NCBI GenBank assembly: GCA_025057115.1 | Contig: JANWWZ010000011.1 | Coordinates: 1 to 64,000 of the forward strand | Reading direction: 5' to 3' | Origin: Bernardetiaceae bacterium | GTDB taxonomy: Bacteria; Bacteroidota; Bacteroidia; Cytophagales; Thermoflexibacteraceae | Length of the DNA stretch: 64,000 nt | Notes under the pieces: generated by a model | Told to the model about the DNA's origin: nothing | Database searches by the model: none | The model's input: the letters and a program-made list of their open reading frames with translations, nothing else | Translations under genes and position numbers: made by a program | Shown here: piece after piece, positions 26,830 to 61,142 of the stretch | Layout of the letters: the number at the start of each line of letters is the position of its first letter | Position numbering within the stretch: position 1 is the stretch's first letter

Positions 26830-27570
26830 ATGCAGCGCTACGGACTCATAGGCAGAAAGCTCTCGCATTCATTTTCCAAGAAATACTTCACGGAAAAGTT
26901 TGCTCGCCAGTGCATCGATGCTACTTATCAACTCTATGAACTGGAAAGCGTCCAAGCCTTGCCCGAGTTGATTAAGTCCCAGCCCGAGCTCAAGGGACTC
27001 AATGTTACTATTCCTTTCAAGGTAGAAGTAATCCCTTTGATGGATTATCTAGCTCCTTGTGCGGCAAAAGTAGGAGCAGTAAATGTCATCAAAATTCACT
27101 CTGATGGCAGGTTAGGAGGGTATAACTCTGATTATGATGGATTTAAGTACTCCCTGGAGCGTTTTATTCCTCATGGACGCATTTTTCATGCCCTTATTTT
27201 GGGAACGGGAGGTGCCTCCAAAGCCGTACAAGCCGTGCTAAGTGATATGGAAATGGAATACACTTTTGTTTCCCGCACTCCTGCTGATAGCCGAACAATA
27301 GGCTATGAAGAATTAAAGACATTAGGGCTAGATGCTTTTCGGCTCATTATCAACACCACGCCGCTGGGTATGTATCCCAATATTGACCAGTTTCCTCCTT
27401 TGCCCTATGAACAACTCACTAGTGCTCATTACCTGCACGATTTGGTGTATAATCCCGAAGTAACCGAATTTATGAAGCGCGGCAGCTACTACGGAGCTCA
27501 TGTCAAAAACGGGCTGGAAATGCTCTACCAACAAGCCGAAAAAGCATGGCAAATTTGGCAAAGCGATTAA
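26830..27570 (+). CDS. aroE: Shikimate 5-dehydrogenase
   Basis: 246 aa, short but within the range seen in Bacteroidota. It catalyses NADPH-dependent reduction of 3-dehydroshikimate to shikimate in aromatic amino-acid synthesis. The substrate-binding N-terminus carries GLIGRKLSHSFSKKYF and LNVTIPFKVEVIPLMD with the catalytic Lys; GGYNSDYDGF holds the catalytic Asp; the Rossmann glycine loop is LGTGGASKAVQAVL; INTTPLGMYP is also conserved. The last 132 bp, including the stop, are duplicated in inverted orientation at 58211-58342, and repeat element A starts immediately after the stop codon. Confidence 0.95.
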   Translation: MQRYGLIGRKLSHSFSKKYFTEKFARQCIDATYQLYELESVQALPELIKSQPELKGLNVTIPFKVEVIPLMDYLAPCAAKVGAVNVIKIHSDGRLGGYNSDYDGFKYSLERFIPHGRIFHALILGTGGASKAVQAVLSDMEMEYTFVSRTPADSRTIGYEELKTLGLDAFRLIINTTPLGMYPNIDQFPPLPYEQLTSAHYLHDLVYNPEVTEFMKRGSYYGAHVKNGLEMLYQQAEKAWQIWQSD

Positions 27571-27600
27571 ATAGCTGCCTAGTTTTTAAAAATCATTTTC

Positions 27601-28000
27601 TGCCATTGTTCGTGTCTTCACGAACAATGTTGTCTGTTCATGCTTTGAAACACAACCCACCAGCGTCGCGGCGGGTATTTTCTTTGAAAAGTGTAAAATA
27701 AAACTTCTGCCATTGTTCGTGTCTTCACGAACAATGTTGCCTTGTTCATGCTTTGAAACACAACCCACCAGCGTCGCGGCGAGTATTTTCTTTTTTGCCA
27801 TTGTTCGTGTCTTCACGAACAATGTGCCTTGTTCATGCTTTGAAACACAACCCACCAGCGTCGCGGCGAGTATTTTCTTTTTTGCCATTGTTCGTGTCTT
27901 CACGAACAATGTTGCCTTGTTCATGTTTTGAAACACAACCCACCAACATCGCGGCGAGTATTTTCTTTTTTGCCATTGTTCGTGTCTTCACGAACAATGT
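27601..28000 (+). repeat. X units: five near-perfect hairpins at about 88-bp spacing
   Basis: Perfect 11-bp stems (arm CATTGTTCGTG, loop TCTT, arm CACGAACAATG) start at 27604, 27711, 27799, 27886 and 27974, so the spacings are 107, 88, 87 and 88 bp. The DNA between hairpins is also conserved (TTGTTCATGCTTTGAAACAC, then ACCCACCAGCGTCGCGGCGA, then a TATTTTCTTT stretch). The 107-bp unit has an extra segment containing GAAAAGTGTAAAATAAAAC, which recurs in element C. This is a tandem array of one long unit, not spacers between short repeats. Confidence 0.92.
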
Positions 28001-28090
28001 GCTTTATTCACGCCTTGAAAAACAACCCAGCGGACGACGGCGAGTATTTTCTTTGGTTTGTACTTGCTTTTTGCGTTTTAATCACAAACG

Positions 28091-28421
28091 GTTGTTCGTG
28101 AGGACATGAATAATAGTAGGAAAGTTGTTCGTGAGGACACGAACAACGGTGAATCAGATGGTTGTTTGTGAGGACACAAACAACGGCGAGTGAGGACACA
28201 GTAGTTGTTCGTGAGGACACAGTAGTTGTTCGTGAGGACACAGTAGTTGTTCGTGAGGACACGAACAACGGTAAAACGACGAATCACAAGTTGTTCGTGA
28301 GGACACGAACAACGGAGAGTAAGGACGCAAACAGGACACGAACAACGGTGAATCAGAAGTGGTTGTTTGTGAAGACACAAACAACGGCGAGTGAGGATAC
28401 AAACAGGACACGAACAATGGC
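28091..28421 (+). repeat. Y-hairpin array with compensatory arm changes
   Basis: Repeated 24-nt palindromes: arm GTTGTTCGTG, loop AGGA, arm CACGAACAAC. The first is degenerate (28091), full copies lie near 28123, 28251 and 28290, and three half-copies end in GAGGACACAGTA (about 28203-28245). Two copies (28161-28184 and near 28364) read GTTGTTTGTG with CACAAACAAC, so both arms changed together and the stem is preserved. Spacers such as GGTGAATCAGA and GGCGAGTGAGGA recur. Confidence 0.9.
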
Positions 28422-28478
28422 AGAAGAATTTGACCGTTTTGTAAAGCAACCGCTAAACGAATAGCTTTTAAGGGTTGT
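28422..28478 (+). pseudogene. Duplicated 3' tail of the tlpA-like gene
   Basis: 57 bp encoding EEFDRFVKQPLNE plus a TAG stop and about 14 bp beyond it. It matches the reverse complement of 58887-58943, the end of the intact TlpA-like gene (which reads EEFDRFVKQLLNE), with one or two differences. It lies directly after the Y array and has no upstream coding region, so it is a fragment rather than a gene. A long open frame through the Y array runs into it in frame, probably by chance. Confidence 0.88.
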
Positions 28479-28539
28479 AGACCAACTTTATCAGCCGCAA
28501 AACGACCTTGCAAAATAGTCAATAATCTTGCAGAGTTGT

Positions 28540-31500
28540 TTATATTTTCAATCCCATTAGCAAAATGTCATCTATTTGTTCTTCTTCTCCTTGCCACTGG
28601 GCAAGATGTTTCGCAAAAGCCCGTTCTTGTTCTTCAATGGGTAGGTTGCTAATTTCTATGCATAGTTGCCGAAAGCGCTTCACCGTGAGTTTTTGCTTGG
28701 TTTGGCTACTGATTTGGTCGGCATAGCCGTCGCTAAACATATAAAGCACATCGCCTTTTTGAACAGCAATTTCTTGGGTAGTAAACAGGTGTCCTTCTCT
28801 TTGGAAACCTCCTACGGAAAGTCGGTCAGCTTTGTATTCCATGAGCGTGCCTTCTCTTACCAAATAAAGGGGATTATGGGCACCCGCAAATTGTATCGTT
28901 TGCGTTTGAGCATCGTAGACGATGAGAGACATATCCATGCCGTCGCTGTTGGTACCTTTTTCTTGTTGAAGTGTTCCACGGATGTGTTGATTCATTTCAT
29001 TGAGAATGACGGCGGGATCGATTTGAGTTAAGCGGGCTACAATATTGTCTAAAAGAGAAATGCCCAGCATGCTCATCATGGCTCCTGGTACGCCATGGCC
29101 TGTACAATCTGCCACCACAACAATTGCTTTTCCATCTTTTTCAGCCAGCCAATAAAAATCGCCGCTGACGATATCTCTAGGTCGGTTCAAGATAAAGTAG
29201 CCTGCAAAAAAACGTCGAAGCGCAGAAGCATCTGGCAGCATGGCGTCTTGAATCCGCCTAGCGTATCGAATGCTGCTTGCAGTTTCTTCTTGCTGTTGGC
29301 GTATTTTATCGCGCTGTCGTTCAATTTCCTTATTTTGCCACTGGACTTGCGCCAAAGTGCGACTTAGGGCGCCGTTGAGCTCAAAAAGTTGTTCGTTAGC
29401 TTGCTCTAGTTCAAGGGACTTTTGTTGAATAATTTCGTTTTGTTTTTTGACTTGTGCTAAAGTGCTTTCTAGCTCAGCATTGGCTTGGCTAAGCTCGCGG
29501 GTGCGCAGAGCTATTTGTTGGCTGAGTCGTTCCTTTTCGCGTTTCATGAGCCTCAGTCGCCATTCGCCAATGAGCCAGATAATCAAAATAGCAAGCAAAA
29601 TGTAAAACACATAAGCCACTACTGTGCGGTACCATGGCGATTTGATAACAAAATGATAAGAAGCCTCTTGACTAATATTACCAAATACATCGCGTGCTCG
29701 CAGGCGAAAGACGTAATGTCCTTCAGCAAGGTTGGTATATTCTTTGTCGTTGTCCGCAGTCCAATCGCTCCATTTTTTTTCCAAGCCTTCCAGTTTGTAT
29801 TGGAATTGCATAGCCTGAGTGCTGTTAAAGGCGGTAGCGCTAAAAACAAAGCGAATGCGATTGAGCGAATAGGGCAGGTCTGGGCTAAACAAAGTGCTTT
29901 GCTGTGAAGTAGCTCTTCCTTCCTTGTCAGCAAAAGCGCCGTAGAAAATCACTGAATCTTGCTGGCCTATGCTTACTTGGCGAATAAGTACTTTGAAAGT
30001 AAATTGAGAAGGAATCCTTTGAGAAGGTTGGTAGCGATAAATGCCGTTGAGATCGCTTAGCCAGATGGCGGCAGTGTCTTGGGTGTAAAGTGTTTGTACT
30101 GCATGTAAGTCGTGGAGTCGCTGTAGTGAGCTTTGGTGATAGGTCCATCCGCTGTCTGTCTTTTGCCAGTAGCCTATTTCAATTTTTTTCTTGTAAAAGG
30201 AAAGAGCCCATAGGTTTCCTTGCCTATCTAAAGCGGGCAAAATAACCTTTCGCTGCTGCTTGTTATAGGGTTGATGGAAGGCAGAATCGGGAACAAACTT
30301 GCCTCCTTCGTACTTGTAAATGCCTTTTTCAGTTGCCAGGCGAATTTGTCCGTTGAGGGTAAATAAGTGATTATCTGTAAGAGAGGGAAGTCCATCGGCA
30401 ATGCCTAATTGGCGCACTTGGGGTTGCAAGGTGAATTGGTAAGTGTTGTTCTGCAAGAAACTGATTAGGTAAATGCCGTTGTTGAGTGAGGCTGCCCATA
30501 GGTTGCCGTCTTTATCTTCACAGAGGTGGCGTATGTCATCTCGCACTCCTTCGAGGCGACCTGCGTCTATCCAATTTCCTTCTTTTCTGTAAAGGCATCG
30601 GATGCTGTAAGCCGAACCAGCGAAAACGCGGTCAGGATCTATAGCAGAACGCGTAAGGCAAAAGATGTTAGGGGGGGTCTCCTCACTTATGATGTTGGTA
30701 GCTGTTTCATTGCGAAGGAGCTTTACTCCCATGAAAGTACCTACTAGCAGGTCGCTGTCAATAGAAAGCAATGCCCAACAATCTAATTTGAATCCTGGAA
30801 CGGGTTCGAATTCGGCATCGTAGAATTTTTGTTTTGCGGCATGGTGAGTGAGCTCACGAGGCACTAGCCGAAATAGTCCGCTGATGGTAGCTATGTAAAT
30901 GGTGCCTTGGTGTCTTGTAATGTCGTTTACTACTCCTTTTACTTGGTGATGGTATTCATTGAATACTGTAAGTTCCGAAGGGTACTCTAGGCGGGCAATG
31001 CCGTTGTAAAGTCCTACCCACAGTCCATTTTGGTTGTCTTCAGCGATGCACAAAGCAAAGTCATCTGCCAATCCGTTGCGCCTGTTGTAAATTCCCAGTA
31101 ATTTTCCTTGAGGGCTGATTAGGATGATTCCCACGCCCAACATGCCGATGGCGATAGCTCTATAGTTGCCTTGTCCTACCCAACGGGCGGTATAGCTTCT
31201 AAAGTCGCGCAGCAGTTCGTCTGCTTCTGTAGTCCAGCGAGTAATTTTGTCCTGTCCTAGAATGAAAAAACCGATATTTTGCACGCATATCAACAACTCT
31301 TTTTCACCCCAAGGCAATACTTGGCTAATCAAAGAAGCTGAAAAGGATTCGGTGCCTTTTACAGGAGTAAGAGCGCTGCCGGTCCATTTCATCAATCCGT
31401 AGTCATTTTGTTGCACGTAGAATTGGTTGCGCACTGCGTAGCCAAAGGTGAAAAAGGTAGTAGCGGGCACTACTTGCAAGTAAGGTTTTCCTTTGTTTTC

Positions 31501-31962
31501 CTTAAGAATGTAAATAGTTTCATCAGTTTGAAAAAAAACTCCTTCTGGCAGGCAGTGGACTGTCCACACATCGCTAAAGTTACGCTTGTCTTCTGGCAGC
31601 AGGGTGTGCAACGGTTCATAGCGCATGCGTCCAAGTGAATCGGCGCGCAAATAGCCAAAGTTTTTAGATCCTCCTACGTAAATGCGTCCTTTGTCATCAC
31701 AGGCAAGAGCGCGCACTACGCTGCCCGTTCTGATAAGTTGCCATTTATTGCCATCGTATTCTAAAACGCCGTCATCATTGCCAAAGTAGAGAACCCCTCT
31801 CAAGTCTTGTGCGATAGCCCAGTTTGCCAGTCCCGCTTTGTAGAATTGAGGTAAGTAGTTATTTATAAAAGGAGCGCCTCGCTCGTAACTTTGTCCATAG
31901 CAAAACAGCTGACTCAATAGGTACAAAACAAGCCATTGCCCTGCACTTTGTAGTCGGTTCAT
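28540..31962 (-). CDS. Membrane sensor with beta-propeller, Y_Y_Y domain, coiled coil and SpoIIE-type PP2C phosphatase
   Basis: About 1140 aa from ATG 31962, where a signal peptide starts (MNRLQSAGQWLVLYLLSQLFCYGQ); the open frame begins 20 codons earlier. The periplasmic part is a ligand-binding propeller (repeats such as GVLYFGNDDGVLEYDGNKW and NGLWVGLYNGIARLEYPSELTVF) followed by a Y_Y_Y domain (YKLEGLEKKWSDW...YTNLAEGHYVFRLRARD). One transmembrane helix (VVAYVFYILLAILIIWLIG) leads to a coiled coil (about 830-920) and a SpoIIE/PP2C domain: SGDFYWLAEKDGK, VVADCTGHGVPGAMMSML, LYMFSDGYADQ, with the metal Asp residues present. This class dephosphorylates Ser/Thr on STAS or SiaC-type partners. 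A SiaB/SiaC pair lies at 39471-40411 and could be its partner (inference). Confidence 0.9.
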   Translation of the reverse strand: MNRLQSAGQWLVLYLLSQLFCYGQSYERGAPFINNYLPQFYKAGLANWAIAQDLRGVLYFGNDDGVLEYDGNKWQLIRTGSVVRALACDDKGRIYVGGSKNFGYLRADSLGRMRYEPLHTLLPEDKRNFSDVWTVHCLPEGVFFQTDETIYILKENKGKPYLQVVPATTFFTFGYAVRNQFYVQQNDYGLMKWTGSALTPVKGTESFSASLISQVLPWGEKELLICVQNIGFFILGQDKITRWTTEADELLRDFRSYTARWVGQGNYRAIAIGMLGVGIILISPQGKLLGIYNRRNGLADDFALCIAEDNQNGLWVGLYNGIARLEYPSELTVFNEYHHQVKGVVNDITRHQGTIYIATISGLFRLVPRELTHHAAKQKFYDAEFEPVPGFKLDCWALLSIDSDLLVGTFMGVKLLRNETATNIISEETPPNIFCLTRSAIDPDRVFAGSAYSIRCLYRKEGNWIDAGRLEGVRDDIRHLCEDKDGNLWAASLNNGIYLISFLQNNTYQFTLQPQVRQLGIADGLPSLTDNHLFTLNGQIRLATEKGIYKYEGGKFVPDSAFHQPYNKQQRKVILPALDRQGNLWALSFYKKKIEIGYWQKTDSGWTYHQSSLQRLHDLHAVQTLYTQDTAAIWLSDLNGIYRYQPSQRIPSQFTFKVLIRQVSIGQQDSVIFYGAFADKEGRATSQQSTLFSPDLPYSLNRIRFVFSATAFNSTQAMQFQYKLEGLEKKWSDWTADNDKEYTNLAEGHYVFRLRARDVFGNISQEASYHFVIKSPWYRTVVAYVFYILLAILIIWLIGEWRLRLMKREKERLSQQIALRTRELSQANAELESTLAQVKKQNEIIQQKSLELEQANEQLFELNGALSRTLAQVQWQNKEIERQRDKIRQQQEETASSIRYARRIQDAMLPDASALRRFFAGYFILNRPRDIVSGDFYWLAEKDGKAIVVVADCTGHGVPGAMMSMLGISLLDNIVARLTQIDPAVILNEMNQHIRGTLQQEKGTNSDGMDMSLIVYDAQTQTIQFAGAHNPLYLVREGTLMEYKADRLSVGGFQREGHLFTTQEIAVQKGDVLYMFSDGYADQISSQTKQKLTVKRFRQLCIEISNLPIEEQERAFAKHLAQWQGEEEQIDDILLMGLKI

Positions 31963-32005
31963 GGTCAAAGCTGCCAAATTGTTGGTCAAATATAAACCTA
32001 TTTCC

Positions 32006-32209
32006 CTACTGCTTGCTCTCAAAGGGATAAATCAAAGGGATAAATGGCACAAAAATGACATCTAAAGAAAGATGCACTTGCAAAACGAAGGTAGAAAAAA
32101 TTAGAGCAAGGAGCAATAAAATGGCTTTTTTGTATTTCTGACGCAGTAGAGCAAATTTTTTTGGGCACTTCGAGGCAAATAACTTAGCAACAAATTTTAG
32201 GCTGTGCAT
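32006..32209 (-). CDS. Possible small two-helix membrane protein
   Basis: 67 aa, ending 44 bp upstream of the likely start of the phosphatase gene. A basic N-terminus (KLFASKCPKKFALLRQKYKK) is followed by two closely spaced hydrophobic helices (AILLLLALIFSTFVLQVH and LDVIFVPFIPLIYPF) and a short polar tail, an arrangement seen in small Bacteroidota inner-membrane proteins. No homologue is recognised and no ribosome binding site decides the matter. The alternative is that this is untranslated leader DNA. Confidence 0.35.
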   Translation of the reverse strand: MHSLKFVAKLFASKCPKKFALLRQKYKKAILLLLALIFSTFVLQVHLSLDVIFVPFIPLIYPFESKQ

Positions 32210-32251
32210 CTGGCAGCGCGGATTACTTTTTCACTAACAAAGGATTCGGTT

Positions 32252-32315
32252 AGAAGGCATTTTAAAGCGACGCAGTGGGAAGGCATGTATTGAACCTTAG
32301 CTAGCTGGGATGTAA
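32252..32315 (+). repeat. Left flanking direct repeat of element C
   Basis: About 64 bp beginning AGAAGGCATTTTAAAGC and containing TTGAAC and GCTAGC. It aligns at roughly 70% identity with 32521-32587 on the other side of element C. The start of the motif also occurs at about 40490-40507 (AGGTATTTTAAAGCAACG), so it may be a dispersed sequence rather than an insertion footprint. Confidence 0.6.
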
Positions 32316-32334
32316 GTCGGAAAAAAACTAACTT

Positions 32335-32513
32335 TTGTTATTGTTATGTCTTGGTGAGCAAGCCGCCTTGTTTATGTCTTGAGAAAAACAACCTACCAGT
32401 GTGGCGGCGAGTATTTTCTTTGGAAAGTGTAAAATAAAATTGCGCTTTTCCGCTTATTCTTACTTTTTGCGTTTTAATTACAATCGGTTATCCTTGAAGA
32501 CACGAATAATGGC
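32335..32513 (+). repeat. Repeat element C: decayed, shortened relative of elements A and B
   Basis: It has the same order of landmarks as element A: a mutated X hairpin (TTGTTATGTCTTGGTGAGCAA), GCCTTGTTTATGTCTTGAGA, ACAACCTACCAGTGTGGCGG, CGAGTATTTTCTTTG, GAAAGTGTAAAATAAAA, ACTTTTTGCGTTTTAATTAC and a decayed Y hairpin (CGGTTATCCTTGAAGACACG, then AATAATGG). Many point differences show it is old. It lies in the same orientation as element A. Confidence 0.8.
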
Positions 32514-32520
32514 AGGGAGT

Positions 32521-32587
32521 AGAGGGCATTTTTAAAGCCATGTGATGGGCAAGCATACGTTGAACGCTGGCTAGCGGTGCGGAGTAA
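32521..32587 (+). repeat. Right flanking direct repeat of element C
   Basis: About 67 bp beginning AGAGGGCATTTTTAAAGC, with TTGAACG and GGCTAGC at the same relative positions as the left copy (32252-32315). The two copies are in direct orientation and bracket the decayed element, paralleling the duplicated gene tails inferred for elements A and B. Confidence 0.6.
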
Positions 32588-32698
32588 TTCATTGGCTAGT
32601 TGTCGGGTTGCTCTAAGTAGTTTTCAGGAAATAGCAATCTGCACTTTGGTAGGATAGAAGAAGTATTTTGTCTTCTTCCAAGAAGCGCTAATAGAACG

Positions 32699-57704: not shown

Positions 57705-58160
57705 TTAAAAATCTTCCAAATCTTCTAAGTCTTCTTCATCGTTGTTGTGGTGATGTTTCCCTTTTCCCTTGTGTTTTGTCTTTTGACGGCGTTGGCGTAC
57801 TTTTTCTCTAATCTCCTGACGGCGCTTAGCTTGGAGTTGCTCAAACTTTGCCTGTTGCTCAGGGGTTAGGATGCCTTTCATGGCATTTTGGAACTCCTGG
57901 CGAATTTGCTGCGCCTTATGGAGGCGTGCTTGCCTTTCAGCAGCCATTTGAGCGCGCAACTGGTCGGCCTCCCTGATGCGTTTTTTAAGAGCTTCTTTTA
58001 CTTGTTCTTGTTGTTTGAGGTCTAGACCTAATTCTTGAGTAAGGCGCTTGAGCTGAGATTCGAGGCGCTGTTGAACATTGGTTTCTTGATTGGCTTGGCT
58101 TTCTTGTCCGCGCACTTGATAAAGTAGCAGCATCAGAAAAATAATTGCGAGAATTCTCAT
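57705..58160 (-). CDS. Spy/CpxP-like (LTxxQ) exported helical protein
   Basis: 151 aa with signal peptide (MRILAIIFLMLLLYQVRG). The mature part is almost entirely helical and charged, with two LTxxQ-like motifs (LGLDLKQQEQVKEAL and ILTPEQQAKFEQLQ), as in periplasmic chaperones of the Spy/CpxP group. The C-terminus is a basic then histidine/aspartate-rich tail (KHKGKGKHHHNNDEEDLEDLEDF) that could bind metal ions. The gene lies just downstream of the duplicated aroE tail and reads in the same direction as it. Confidence 0.75.
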   Translation of the reverse strand: MRILAIIFLMLLLYQVRGQESQANQETNVQQRLESQLKRLTQELGLDLKQQEQVKEALKKRIREADQLRAQMAAERQARLHKAQQIRQEFQNAMKGILTPEQQAKFEQLQAKRRQEIREKVRQRRQKTKHKGKGKHHHNNDEEDLEDLEDF

Positions 58161-58210
58161 AATTGCTTGTTGTCATTTCCCTTGTTGAGACAGCAAGCAA
58201 GGCAAGAAGT

Positions 58211-58342
58211 TTAATCGCTTTGCCAAATTTGCCATGCTTTTTCGGCTTGTTGGTAGAGCATTTCCAGCCCGTTTTTGACATGGGCTCTATAGTAGCTGCC
58301 GCGCTTCATAAATTCGGTTACTTCGGGATTATACACCAAATC
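58211..58342 (-). pseudogene. Duplicated 3' tail of aroE
   Basis: 132 bp identical, apart from about three to four substitutions, to the reverse complement of 27439-27570, the last 44 codons of aroE including its stop. Homology ends exactly at the stop codon on one side and at the Y array on the other. Because reading-frame continuity with the Y array is lost and there is no start, it is a non-functional fragment. Confidence 0.93.
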
Positions 58343-58886
58343 TTCTTCTTGCCGTTGCTTGCATCCTCATGAACAACCACTTGTGATTCGTCGTTTCGCC
58401 GTTGTTCATGTCCTGACGAACAACTTCTCGCCGTTGTTCGTGTTCTGTTTGTGTCCTCACTCGCCGTTGTTCGTGTCCTCACGAACAACTTGTGATTCGT
58501 CGTTTTACCGTTGTTCGTGTCCTCACGAACAACTACTTGTGATTCGCCATTTTTCATGTCCTGACAACATCTTCTCTCCGTTGTTCGTGTCCTCACGAAC
58601 AACTTTCCTACTATTATTCATGTCCTCACGAACAACCGTTTGTGATTAAAACGCAAAAAGCAAGTACAAGCCAAAGAAAATACTCGCCGTCGTCCGCTGG
58701 GTTGTTTTTCAAGGCGTGAATAAAGCACATTGTTCGTGAAGACACGAACAATGGCAAAAAAGAAAATACTCGCCGCGATGTTGGTGGGTTGTGTTTCAAA
58801 ACATGAACAAGGCAACATTGTTCGTGAAGACACGAACAATGGCAGAAAATGACCTTATAATATTAGGCAGTTACTAAAGCTCGTCC
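58343..58886 (-). repeat. Repeat element B: inverted counterpart of element A
   Basis: Read on the minus strand it follows the tlpA-like stop with a leader (CTGCCTAATATTATAAGGTC), two X units (hairpins near 58824 and 58737), the same junction as element A, then a Y-hairpin array (about 58345-58640). The region 58578-58844 is nearly identical to 27884-28150. Y copies here are more varied, some having lost pairing, such as GTTGTTCATG opposite TGCAAGCAAC next to the aroE tail. It ends at the duplicated aroE fragment. Confidence 0.9.
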
Positions 58887-58900
58887 ACAACCCTTAAAAG

Positions 58901-60166
58901 CTATTCGTTTAGCAGTTGCTTTACAAAACGGTCAAATTCTTCTACATAGGTGCTGTAGTAATGCCCCGTTCCTGGACCGCTAAAACCAGTGTGAATTTTT
59001 CGCACGTTGCCTTTTTTGTCTATAAAAATAGTAGTGGGATAAGCAAGCACTGCATTGAGCATGGGCAAAGTGCGGTTAGCGCTTTCTTTATCAGCACTGC
59101 CTGCAAAGAGGACTTGGTAATTTACTCCTAAGCGCTTCATCATTTTTAAAATGCGTGGACGGGCTTCTTCAAAGTTAGCGGAACGCTCATAAGCAAGCCC
59201 GATAATTTCTAGTCCTTTCTCTTTATGAGCATCGTAGTAAGGAGCTAAAAATGCTGTTTCGTCCATGCAATTGGGGCACCACGAGCCTAACAACTGTACA
59301 ATAACTACCTTACCTACATAGCGTTGATCATCTATGCTTACCATTTTTCCCTCCATGTTAGGGAAGCGAAAACTTATCCGTTGATAGCCTTCCTTCAAGT
59401 AAGTGAGTTTTTCTGGGTCGGGAAGGCGAGCATGTGGATTGCGTTTAGCTTGCCAATGCTTATATCCACCAATGCCTGACCACATCTGTCCCTTGATCGA
59501 ATCGCCGCTAATTTTGCCTTCAAAAAGCAAAATGCTCTCTCCATTGAAAGTAGAAAGATGCAACTGATTGCCGTTGACTTGCCCTTCTAAAAAGCGATAG
59601 TCGCCTGTGGGAGTTAAAAAAGTACCTGTTAAGTAGTTGCCATTTTGTTGAAAAATTCCGATAGCAGGGCTAGTTTTTCCATCAAGAGCCATAAAACTCG
59701 TTTCCCACTTGCCAGAAATATCCCCTAAAGGCGGTGCGGGATTTTCATCAAAGCGATGTGCTTTGCCATGGGTGGCTTCAAAAGATACGCGATAAATGGC
59801 ATTGCCAGGTAAGTTTTTTCGGAAAAATCCTTTGAGCATGTTCCCTTCTAACTTAGCAATGATTTCTGAGTCGAATACAGGCATGGAAATAAGCAGTGAG
59901 TCGCGCAGATAGGTTATTTCCTCTGCCTGAATGCGCTCTTCTCCGTTGCGAATTACTATAGAGGTCGGTGCTTCAGAGCGGCTATCTACCTCCATCAAAA
60001 AAGGCACTTGCTTGCCTTGTACGTGCAACACGGCGCGCCAAATGCCTGCGGGAATGGTTTGCGCTTTTGAAAAAGAAATGTTCAACAGCAGGCAAGCGGA
60101 TAGCACAGCTTCTACACGCTTCGCCACCAGAATGGCTGACCATTTGGAAAAATAGTTGCTCATCAT
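58901..60166 (-). CDS. TlpA-like thioredoxin-fold protein with N-terminal beta domain
   Basis: About 421 aa from ATG 60166; the frame extends 10 codons further into the preceding gene. A signal peptide or anchor (SAILVAKRVEAVLSACLLLNISFSKAQ) leads to a beta-rich domain (about 25-260) and a C-terminal TlpA/AhpC-type thioredoxin domain: VVIVQLLGSWCPNCMDETAFLAPYY with a CPNC redox centre, then LAYPTTIFIDKKGNVRKIHTGFSGPGTG. It is probably a periplasmic thiol-disulfide reductase. The last 13 codons are duplicated at the end of repeat element A. Confidence 0.88.
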   Translation of the reverse strand: MMSNYFSKWSAILVAKRVEAVLSACLLLNISFSKAQTIPAGIWRAVLHVQGKQVPFLMEVDSRSEAPTSIVIRNGEERIQAEEITYLRDSLLISMPVFDSEIIAKLEGNMLKGFFRKNLPGNAIYRVSFEATHGKAHRFDENPAPPLGDISGKWETSFMALDGKTSPAIGIFQQNGNYLTGTFLTPTGDYRFLEGQVNGNQLHLSTFNGESILLFEGKISGDSIKGQMWSGIGGYKHWQAKRNPHARLPDPEKLTYLKEGYQRISFRFPNMEGKMVSIDDQRYVGKVVIVQLLGSWCPNCMDETAFLAPYYDAHKEKGLEIIGLAYERSANFEEARPRILKMMKRLGVNYQVLFAGSADKESANRTLPMLNAVLAYPTTIFIDKKGNVRKIHTGFSGPGTGHYYSTYVEEFDRFVKQLLNE

Positions 60167-60170
60167 TTTG

Positions 60171-61142
60171 TCAATAGTGTTGTTTAGGGAATCCATTAAA
60201 TCCTTTTGCTTTGAGTTGATTGGCTAGCTGACGAGCTTGCTCAAGACTTCCCTCACCAGCAATAACGCGGAAAATGCGTAGACTTCCCGCCCAGCCCGTT
60301 TGTATGTAAACATTAGCAAGTTGTGTTTGTTCAACAGCCCGACCTAGTTGCAAGGCTGATTCTAATTTATTGTAAGAACCTAGCTGTACGCCGTGGCCCT
60401 CCGGATAGACCTTTTGACCATCGAGCCGATACGTGTTTATTCCTCCAAAAGGTTCCTCGGGGGAAGTTTTTTTATCTGGCGTTTCGGGCTTAGGAGCAGG
60501 AGGAGGTTGTTCTGGTGGACGAGTTTCTGGAGAGGAAGGCGTTTTATTTTCTTGAGGACGGTGGTTTTCTTCTTTTTGTTCTGGTGGTTTGCCCAGAAGG
60601 CGACGGATGCGCTCAAGCAATTTATTTCGCCGTTCTTCTTCTGAAGAAATGGGTGGTTTTTCCTCAGGTTCGGAGGGTTGTTGGGTACCTTGTTCTTCTT
60701 GTCGGCGGATTCGCTCTTCATTTTCACGGCGTTGGCTTTCTGTCACTGGACCTGTTTCTACGTGCAATACTTCTAGCTGGACAGGCGCCGTTCCTGTGCG
60801 AATCATATCGATCTTCATTGCAGCTGCTTTGGAGAGGTCTATAATGCGTCCTCCTTTGTAAGGTCCCCGATCATTGACTCTAACAATGACTGACTTGTTG
60901 TTGTACAAATTGGTCACCCGAAGCAAGGTGTGAAACCTAATGCGCGGATGAGCTGCTGTGAGAGCATTCATATCGTACTTTTCTCCACTGGCGGTTTTTC
61001 TGCCGTGAAATTCTTCGGCGTAGTAAGAGGCTTCACCGCGCTGCTTGTACCCCACGCGATTGTATATTTGGTCAAGCGGGGCTACTACTAATGGTAAAGT
61101 GGGCAAAAATAACAACAGGGCAAGAGCAATTCGTTTGAGCAC
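60171..61142 (-). CDS. rlpA: RlpA-type septal lytic transglycosylase with SPOR domain
   Basis: 323 aa. A signal peptide is followed by a double-psi beta-barrel with the RlpA pattern ASYYAEEFHGRKTASGEKYDMNALTAAHP, RVTNLYNNKSVIVRVNDRGPYKGGRIIDLSKAAA, which has the catalytic Glu and Asp. A long proline/glutamate-rich linker (about 150-240) joins it to a SPOR domain (about 245-320, VQLGSYNKLESALQLGRAVEQ) that binds peptidoglycan stripped of peptides at the septum. It lies just upstream of the TlpA-like gene and downstream of the related gene at 61180. Confidence 0.9.
   Translation of the reverse strand: MLKRIALALLLFLPTLPLVVAPLDQIYNRVGYKQRGEASYYAEEFHGRKTASGEKYDMNALTAAHPRIRFHTLLRVTNLYNNKSVIVRVNDRGPYKGGRIIDLSKAAAMKIDMIRTGTAPVQLEVLHVETGPVTESQRRENEERIRRQEEQGTQQPSEPEEKPPISSEEERRNKLLERIRRLLGKPPEQKEENHRPQENKTPSSPETRPPEQPPPAPKPETPDKKTSPEEPFGGINTYRLDGQKVYPEGHGVQLGSYNKLESALQLGRAVEQTQLANVYIQTGWAGSLRIFRVIAGEGSLEQARQLANQLKAKGFNGFPKQHY

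Follow-up and report, generated by a model that had tools for sequence, protein, structure and literature searches.

A gene-less palindromic repeat flanked by long target duplications of variable length in a Bernardetiaceae draft genome

Background

The target duplications that mobile elements leave behind bear the mark of the chemistry of their insertion. Those left by known bacterial transposases are short and mostly of fixed length, the duplications of bacterial MITEs, classical DDE-transposon MITEs included, are short and fixed in length, and IS200/IS605-derived elements insert without any target duplication. In the available part of a review, most bacterial MITEs are said to have terminal inverted repeats with TA at their ends, the palindromic YPAL/RU-2 element of Yersinia is given a length of 168 bp and target duplications of 3–26 bp, and no transposase action on YPAL-type elements is stated to have been shown (PMC2229807). 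As excerpted, accounts of REPINs propose that these are moved by RAYTs (PMC3116915), and REP hairpins are tagged GTAG or CGTC (PMC3733652).

For small bacterial repeats, duplications both long and variable were not found in the literature searched, which lies mostly outside subscription journals and of which only parts were available; the YPAL range was the only one recovered there. The duplications of 23–190 bp described here point to an insertion route undescribed for small bacterial repeats in that literature.

Results

Elements A and B and their exchanged tails

The window, by which we mean the whole 64,000-nt stretch of DNA analysed (contig JANWWZ010000011.1, assembly GCA_025057115.1), carries an intact aroE-like gene (shikimate dehydrogenase; 26830–27570, + strand; ORF with a Pfam Shikimate_dh_N match) that keeps its own tail at its end. 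The final 132 bp of aroE and the base that follows (27439–27571, +) form the in-gene copy of a 133-bp target duplication, 97.7% identical to 58342–58210. Element A (27572–28421, +) starts one base beyond the aroE stop codon (27570) and is built of a 5' end followed by five X units of ~88 bp and by hairpin (Y) units, terminating immediately past a hairpin arm followed by GGC. Its ORFs reach at most 123 aa and are composed of repeat units. What adjoins its far end is the tail of a redoxin-domain gene located ~30 kb away, a second copy of 69 bp (28422–28490, +; 94.2% identical to 58943–58875) displaced from site B.

At that site, an intact redoxin/AhpC-TSA-domain gene (58901–60196, − strand; ORF and Pfam match) is followed by the copy of the target duplication that lies at and just beyond the gene end (58875–58943, −), comprising the end of the gene and 26 bp more. 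Element B (58343–58874, −), inverted relative to A, starts 26 nt past the stop codon of its gene, and its far end abuts the second copy of the aroE tail (58210–58342, −), by synteny the original aroE end. Close by (57705–58160, −) lies a gene for a 151-aa protein with no Pfam match, which is the neighbour of aroE in three congeners.

Flipping the 30-kb segment 28422–58342 restores both the order aroE, A, aroE tail and the order redoxin gene, B, redoxin tail. A and B share an exact match of 174 bp and, after one mismatch, a further match of 92 bp. From the exchanged tails, congener synteny and this exact match, it is very likely that A and B each lay between the copies of their own tail and later swapped their far flanks, either by recombination between the inverted copies, leaving the segment inverted with respect to the inferred ancestral order, or through an assembly mis-join at A/B, since identity of this extent means that short-read mis-joining could yield the same picture. 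Inversion and mis-join lead back to one and the same inferred ancestral arrangement. Inverted copies of the family may rearrange flanking DNA over distances of tens of kilobases; in the accessible part of the report on Galileo of Drosophila, exchanged target duplications at the ends of inversions were read as ectopic recombination (PMC2775673).

A preliminary description of this DNA had set both elements exactly at stop codons, bounded by copies of gene tails of 132 and 57 bp. For A this is accurate to one base and for B it is not; the duplicated tails are real and close to the lengths measured here (133 bp at 97.7% and 69 bp at 94.2% identity), and the boundaries are indeed tail copies, with the qualification that these are exchanged between A and B. 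Its view of the repeat as a possible non-autonomous mobile element without a gene of its own finds support.

The window also holds a third, decayed copy (32319–32519, +), recognised by matches in a self-comparison of the window, an HMM match and a flanking duplication. The left copy of this 68-bp target duplication (32251–32318, +) is 72% identical to the right copy (32520–32590, +), and none of 300 shuffles was as good.

Flanking duplications across the genome

The genome to which the window belongs (G000) is a 3.0-Mb draft of 86 contigs, in which the palindrome TTGTTCGTGTCTTCACGAACAA has 31 exact occurrences and element A as query gives 129 matches. Thirty-nine family loci were examined. The 32 stretches cut around copies resolved into 34 clusters, four of which lay too close to a contig end, and in the remaining 30 the left and right flanks were compared for direct repeats with a loose (E<0.01) and a strict (E<1e-5) cut-off; a duplication was called strong if it had at least 47 bp and E<1e-10. 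At the loose cut-off 17/30 clusters had a left/right direct repeat, reduced to 16/30 when a 40-bp match at C66:99586 was discarded as built from the element's own unit, and raised to 18/30 by adding A and B via their exchanged ends. Sixteen spans were then compared again with gaps allowed, namely all negative clusters but C15 (11 of 12) and five decayed copies beyond the 30; this yielded one extra locus, the third copy of the window, which brings the total to 19 of 35 testable loci with a flanking duplication. Twelve of the 19 are strong, ten by left/right comparison together with A and B.

Under the strict cut-off 13/30 clusters were positive (14 before the drop; A and B are uncounted here, their tails being exchanged), compared with 1/295 random places and 1/144 element-free intergenic regions, the sole intergenic control match being a tandem pair of near-identical genes. 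The loose cut-off gave 7/295 and 5/144 in the same controls. Absence of a detectable duplication at 16 of the 35 loci may reflect age or another route. Several element clusters are situated at or near contig ends (C11:2–708, C12:17–229, C15:90–230, C25:4260–4414 and C86:95979–96218), so that the assembly probably breaks within elements and further copies may be missing from it.

Over the 19 loci, duplication length ranges from 23 to 190 bp and identity between copies from 72 to 98%, which bears out the earlier argument that the fixed-length duplications of transposons do not explain the element. In 15 of the 16 non-exchanged cases exactly two copies of the duplicated sequence were present in the fetched stretch, both abutting the element; at C1, the weakest duplication (80.6%), the second copy fell below the cut-off of that search. 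At ten separate strong loci, twelve counting A and B in their restored arrangement, the two copies bracket the element exactly.

By mechanical ORF calls, the duplicated targets include gene 3' ends (aroE, the redoxin gene, YchF at C5, C85:57886 and C22:213361), gene 5' ends (C22:95613, C85:41590 and C7:52697) and intergenic DNA. The C5 case (L096, ~C5:12519–12952), in which the duplication takes in the end of ychF, is an independent gene-tail case like that of aroE. Of the 34 clusters, 28 could be classified by gene context, 9 as convergent, 7 as divergent and 12 as tandem; of the other six, five fell at edges and one overlaps an ORF. Element-free gene pairs in the same stretches were 25 convergent, 23 divergent and 76 tandem. 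The rule of insertion at gene 3' ends, as formulated in the preliminary description, therefore fails, copies being found in every context, whereas that of a duplicated flank holds at about half of the loci. Nor is there support for the supposition that the host stop codon is kept in the manner of integrative elements: what is duplicated belongs to the target, 5' ends and intergenic DNA included.

An independent scan of the same stretches (0.57 Mb) plus the window looked for direct repeats with a length of 35 bp or more, >85% identity and a separation of <3 kb, element-like segments being filtered out. Eight of its 13 rows flank elements, two lie inside the element at C2:65667, two correspond to the near-identical gene pair already met among the intergenic controls and one is unexplained (L093, 41 bp, copies 2.4 kb apart). 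Since the rows fall mostly at elements, other sequences would seem rarely or never to have been inserted in such a manner. The gene-pair rows (L091 12772–13970, from C55) are nearly identical tandem genes that we take to resemble Uma2-type nucleases; the first contains a run of N.

Empty sites and palindromes in relatives

Three congeners (G001–G003) have ~66–78% DNA identity to the genome over genes. In all three aroE is single-tailed and followed within ~130 bp by the 151-aa gene (tblastn 48–51%), a gap too small for an element; the redoxin gene likewise has one tail in all three, with no element match in the fetched stretch, and the YchF tail is single in 3/3. The exact position of the element between the copies, together with these empty, single congener sites, indicates that the insertion and the duplication happen together, in a single event or in tightly coupled ones. 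Insertions at the ends or starts of genes leave these intact, since the duplicated sequence makes good what has been split, and the family illustrates how repeats can settle at such places without breaking genes.

Related palindromes occur in two of the three congeners, without long duplications. Element A was matched in 11 of 38 relatives, and among the matches listed these were short and centred on hairpins, none covering the X body. In 44 palindrome clusters from 40 stretches of relatives we found no long flanking duplication like those of G000: seven left/right matches were obtained at E<0.01, four of 13–21 bp and three inside one tandem array, and a separate flank comparison (L031–L067) returned two matches, a 13-bp one and L060, the tandem array again. 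The behaviour is accordingly seen in one genome only, itself a draft.

Other repeats were noted in these stretches. A tandem array in L117 (G006:C12:213000–217500) has units of ~716–759 bp, and every unit contains one or two hairpins belonging to this palindrome family. Away from palindromes, there is a 134-bp direct repeat in G007 (L132 2736–2869 and 3592–3725, 722 bp apart) and one of 47 bp in G006 (L122 769–815 and 1521–1567, 705 bp apart). The hairpin TTGTTCGTG-N4-CACGAACAA is present in 28 stretches of public genomes (L031–L058), mostly of Bacteroidota; carriers comprise Arcicella, Algoriphagus, Mucilaginibacter, Cytophagales MAGs and one Rhodospirillales MAG. This spread suggests that the REP-like family may be wider than the present element.

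Anatomy, ends and junctions

A minimal copy of the element has ~190–255 bp, longer copies containing internal tandem repeats. In an HMM comparison the 3' end, when reverse-complemented, matches the 5' hairpin region (model positions 25–60), and one minimal copy folds end to end with a z of −3.6; the anatomy predicted from the sequence is that of a foldback, REPIN/MITE-like element.

The ends were compared by eye at the 12 strong loci. On the side facing the upstream target copy, 12/12 elements have the 3' arm of a hairpin unit and then no more than ~15 nt before they end, usually in a GGC tail, some arms being partial or decayed. On the other side a GYAGTTGCTTAG-like start is found in 7/12, and 5/12 start elsewhere; orientation is ambiguous in some of the five strong loci without the consensus 5' end, and the C7 element is 5'-complete in + orientation by eye. 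TTA occurs within the last 5 nt of the duplication at six of the seven GYAGTTGCTTAG-like loci, compared with 5.2% at random positions of the fetched stretches, a rate unmatched for intergenic A+T.

Junction microhomology exceeded the control at the 5% level in 3/36 junctions, which is about the chance expectation and favours cleavage and joining over annealing. The exceptions include 9 nt of microhomology at one C44 junction and 6 nt at one C66 junction.

Search for the moving enzyme

Domain searches of G000 returned no match to Y1_Tnp (PF01797; the IS200/IS605- and RAYT-type domain), RVT_1, DDE_Tnp_1 (PF01609) or Ku, for which 5, 3, 9 and 1 (Bacillus subtilis) of 14 control genomes, respectively, were positive. 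Y2_Tnp likewise gave 0 matches, in the control genomes as well. An IS200/IS605-like transposase, suggested initially as an example of a gene to look for, was not found in this assembly. For the other example suggested, an Rpn nuclease linked to copies, five matches to the Rpn-like PDDEXK_2 domain (one full-length, four partial) are present, four of them over the cut-off, at 6–365 of the window (− strand), C85:71218, C3:27276, C22:342320 and C12:50374, and no element was found around them in a model search (E<10) reaching at most 1.5 kb, contig permitting. Three of the five, including that of the window, are at contig ends, which suggests that this gene family may itself break the assembly.

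No Rfam family reached threshold on 27400–32600; a sub-threshold CRISPR-repeat match at 28545–28615 lies outside the element and was taken as chance. Collections of plasmids and phages gave no match at E 1e-5. The moving enzyme may have been lost, or may be absent from the assembly.

Discussion

On balance, we lean towards a small gene-less foldback element that is moved in trans by an enzyme, with widely staggered nicks producing the duplications of 23–190 bp. Such an enzyme would nick the two strands of the target 23–190 nt apart, one of the nicks often falling after TTA. The element would be joined at one end just past the hairpin arm (arm plus GGC), and its other end, less regularly, at or inside its 5' end. 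Gap filling by DNA synthesis over the long single-stranded stretches would then create the duplication. Against this reading stand the failure of the domain searches to yield a candidate enzyme, the 16 of 35 loci where no duplication is seen, the five strong loci without the consensus 5' end, the microhomology at C44 and C66, and the restriction of the behaviour to one draft genome. G000 offers material in which to date and map this insertion route and to look for its enzyme.

The alternative that survives best, though we consider it unlikely, is template switching, which had been raised at the outset as a possible origin. Hairpins are obstacles to replication forks, and a stalled nascent strand could copy the element elsewhere, return upstream and copy 23–190 bp twice, all with no need for a transposase. 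The variable length of the duplications, the different 5' end at five of 12 strong loci, the microhomology of 9 nt (C44) and 6 nt (C66), and the lack of matches to three transposase or reverse-transcriptase families (Y1_Tnp, RVT_1, DDE_Tnp_1) would all agree with it. Over the 36 junctions as a whole, however, microhomology stays at control level, a random switch does not predict the hairpin-arm end, the common start or TTA in 6/7, and the direct-repeat scan indicates that sequences other than the element are rarely or never inserted likewise. This alternative is weakened and still live.

It is also unlikely, in our estimation, that we are dealing with an undescribed transposition route which opens the strands up to ~190 nt apart and proceeds either via an RNA copy, as a SINE-like retroposon, or through a TTA/TTTA single-strand nickase, the duplication rebuilding the gene end.

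Target-primed reverse transcription of an element RNA, in the manner of a bacterial SINE, would account for a constant 3' end, 5' truncation and a long variable duplication. The element does end at a hairpin arm in 12/12 strong loci while its other end, judged by eye, is full in seven and different in five, and duplication length does vary. Against this stand the absence of RVT_1 matches from G000, the absence of an Rfam family at threshold on 27400–32600, and a TTA preference that resides at the end opposite the more constant one; we regard this explanation as improbable.

Still less probable is an origin at breaks with long overhangs, in which pieces of the element would be captured as filler and end-joining would seal the break. 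In mouse cells, pairs of nicks 46 nt apart give tandem duplications by cNHEJ, according to the available part of the report (PMC5730883), which lends the idea a precedent; the genome yielded no Ku match, and neither the use of one filler family every time nor common ends would be expected.

A mere artefact or an ordinary series of events, in which a host tandem duplication came first or an assembly error occurred and the repeat was dropped between copies, is very improbable: the assembly is a draft, the 174-bp and 92-bp A/B identity permits a mis-join, and ordered REPIN clusters of SBW25 are, in the excerpted account, tandem repeats that include flanks (PMC3116915), but with differences of 2–28% the copies are not one sequence assembled twice, the element sits exactly between copies at ten strong loci (or at twelve once A and B are put back in order), and the copy searches gave no duplication-element-duplication-element order.

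Comparison with known systems

Several classes of element fit less well. A classical DDE-transposon MITE does not fit duplications of 23–190 bp, nor an IS200/IS605-derived element their presence at 19/35 loci; the reverse transcriptase expected for a SINE-like retroelement had 0 RVT_1 matches in the genome (3/14 controls positive); and for an integrative element with its attachment site at gene 3' ends the context of the 28 classified clusters (9 convergent, 7 divergent, 12 tandem) is unsuitable. The likeness to Galileo is confined to the logic of flank exchange: as described in the accessible part of that report (PMC2775673), its inverted copies at inversion breakpoints have exchanged target duplications as A and B do, but the duplications are of 7 bp and Galileo is a DNA transposon of the P superfamily.

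Bacterial MITEs such as Correia, ERIC and RUP are similar in being short, gene-less and intergenic, with inverted repeats and a target duplication (PMC2229807 and PMC10969869, in the parts available). Most of them differ in having terminal inverted repeats with TA, and no parent transposon was found here, DDE_Tnp_1 being the DDE family searched for.

Resemblance to REPINs and REP-BIMEs is closer, with two inverted foldback hairpins, many extragenic copies and tandem clusters (PMC3116915, as excerpted), and in our element two inverted REP-like hairpins do fold as one unit. Unlike the REPIN/RAYT system, G000 has no match to a Y1_Tnp (RAYT-type) gene; by eye, its hairpins are followed by GGC and not by the GTAG or CGTC tag (PMC3733652, available portion), and the excerpted REPIN account makes no mention of a long target duplication (PMC3116915).

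Finally, the YPAL class is one of palindromic elements that contain no gene and whose target duplications vary in length, and the family in this genome shows these features. YPAL/RU-2, compared by description in the available part of the review, is palindromic and mobile, its inverted repeats are internal rather than terminal, and its target duplications vary (PMC2229807). It differs in that its duplications are of 3–26 bp as opposed to the mostly longer 23–190 bp here, where internal tandem repeats are also present. As far as the available part of that review describes it, YPAL/RU-2 is the closest precedent for the family (PMC2229807).
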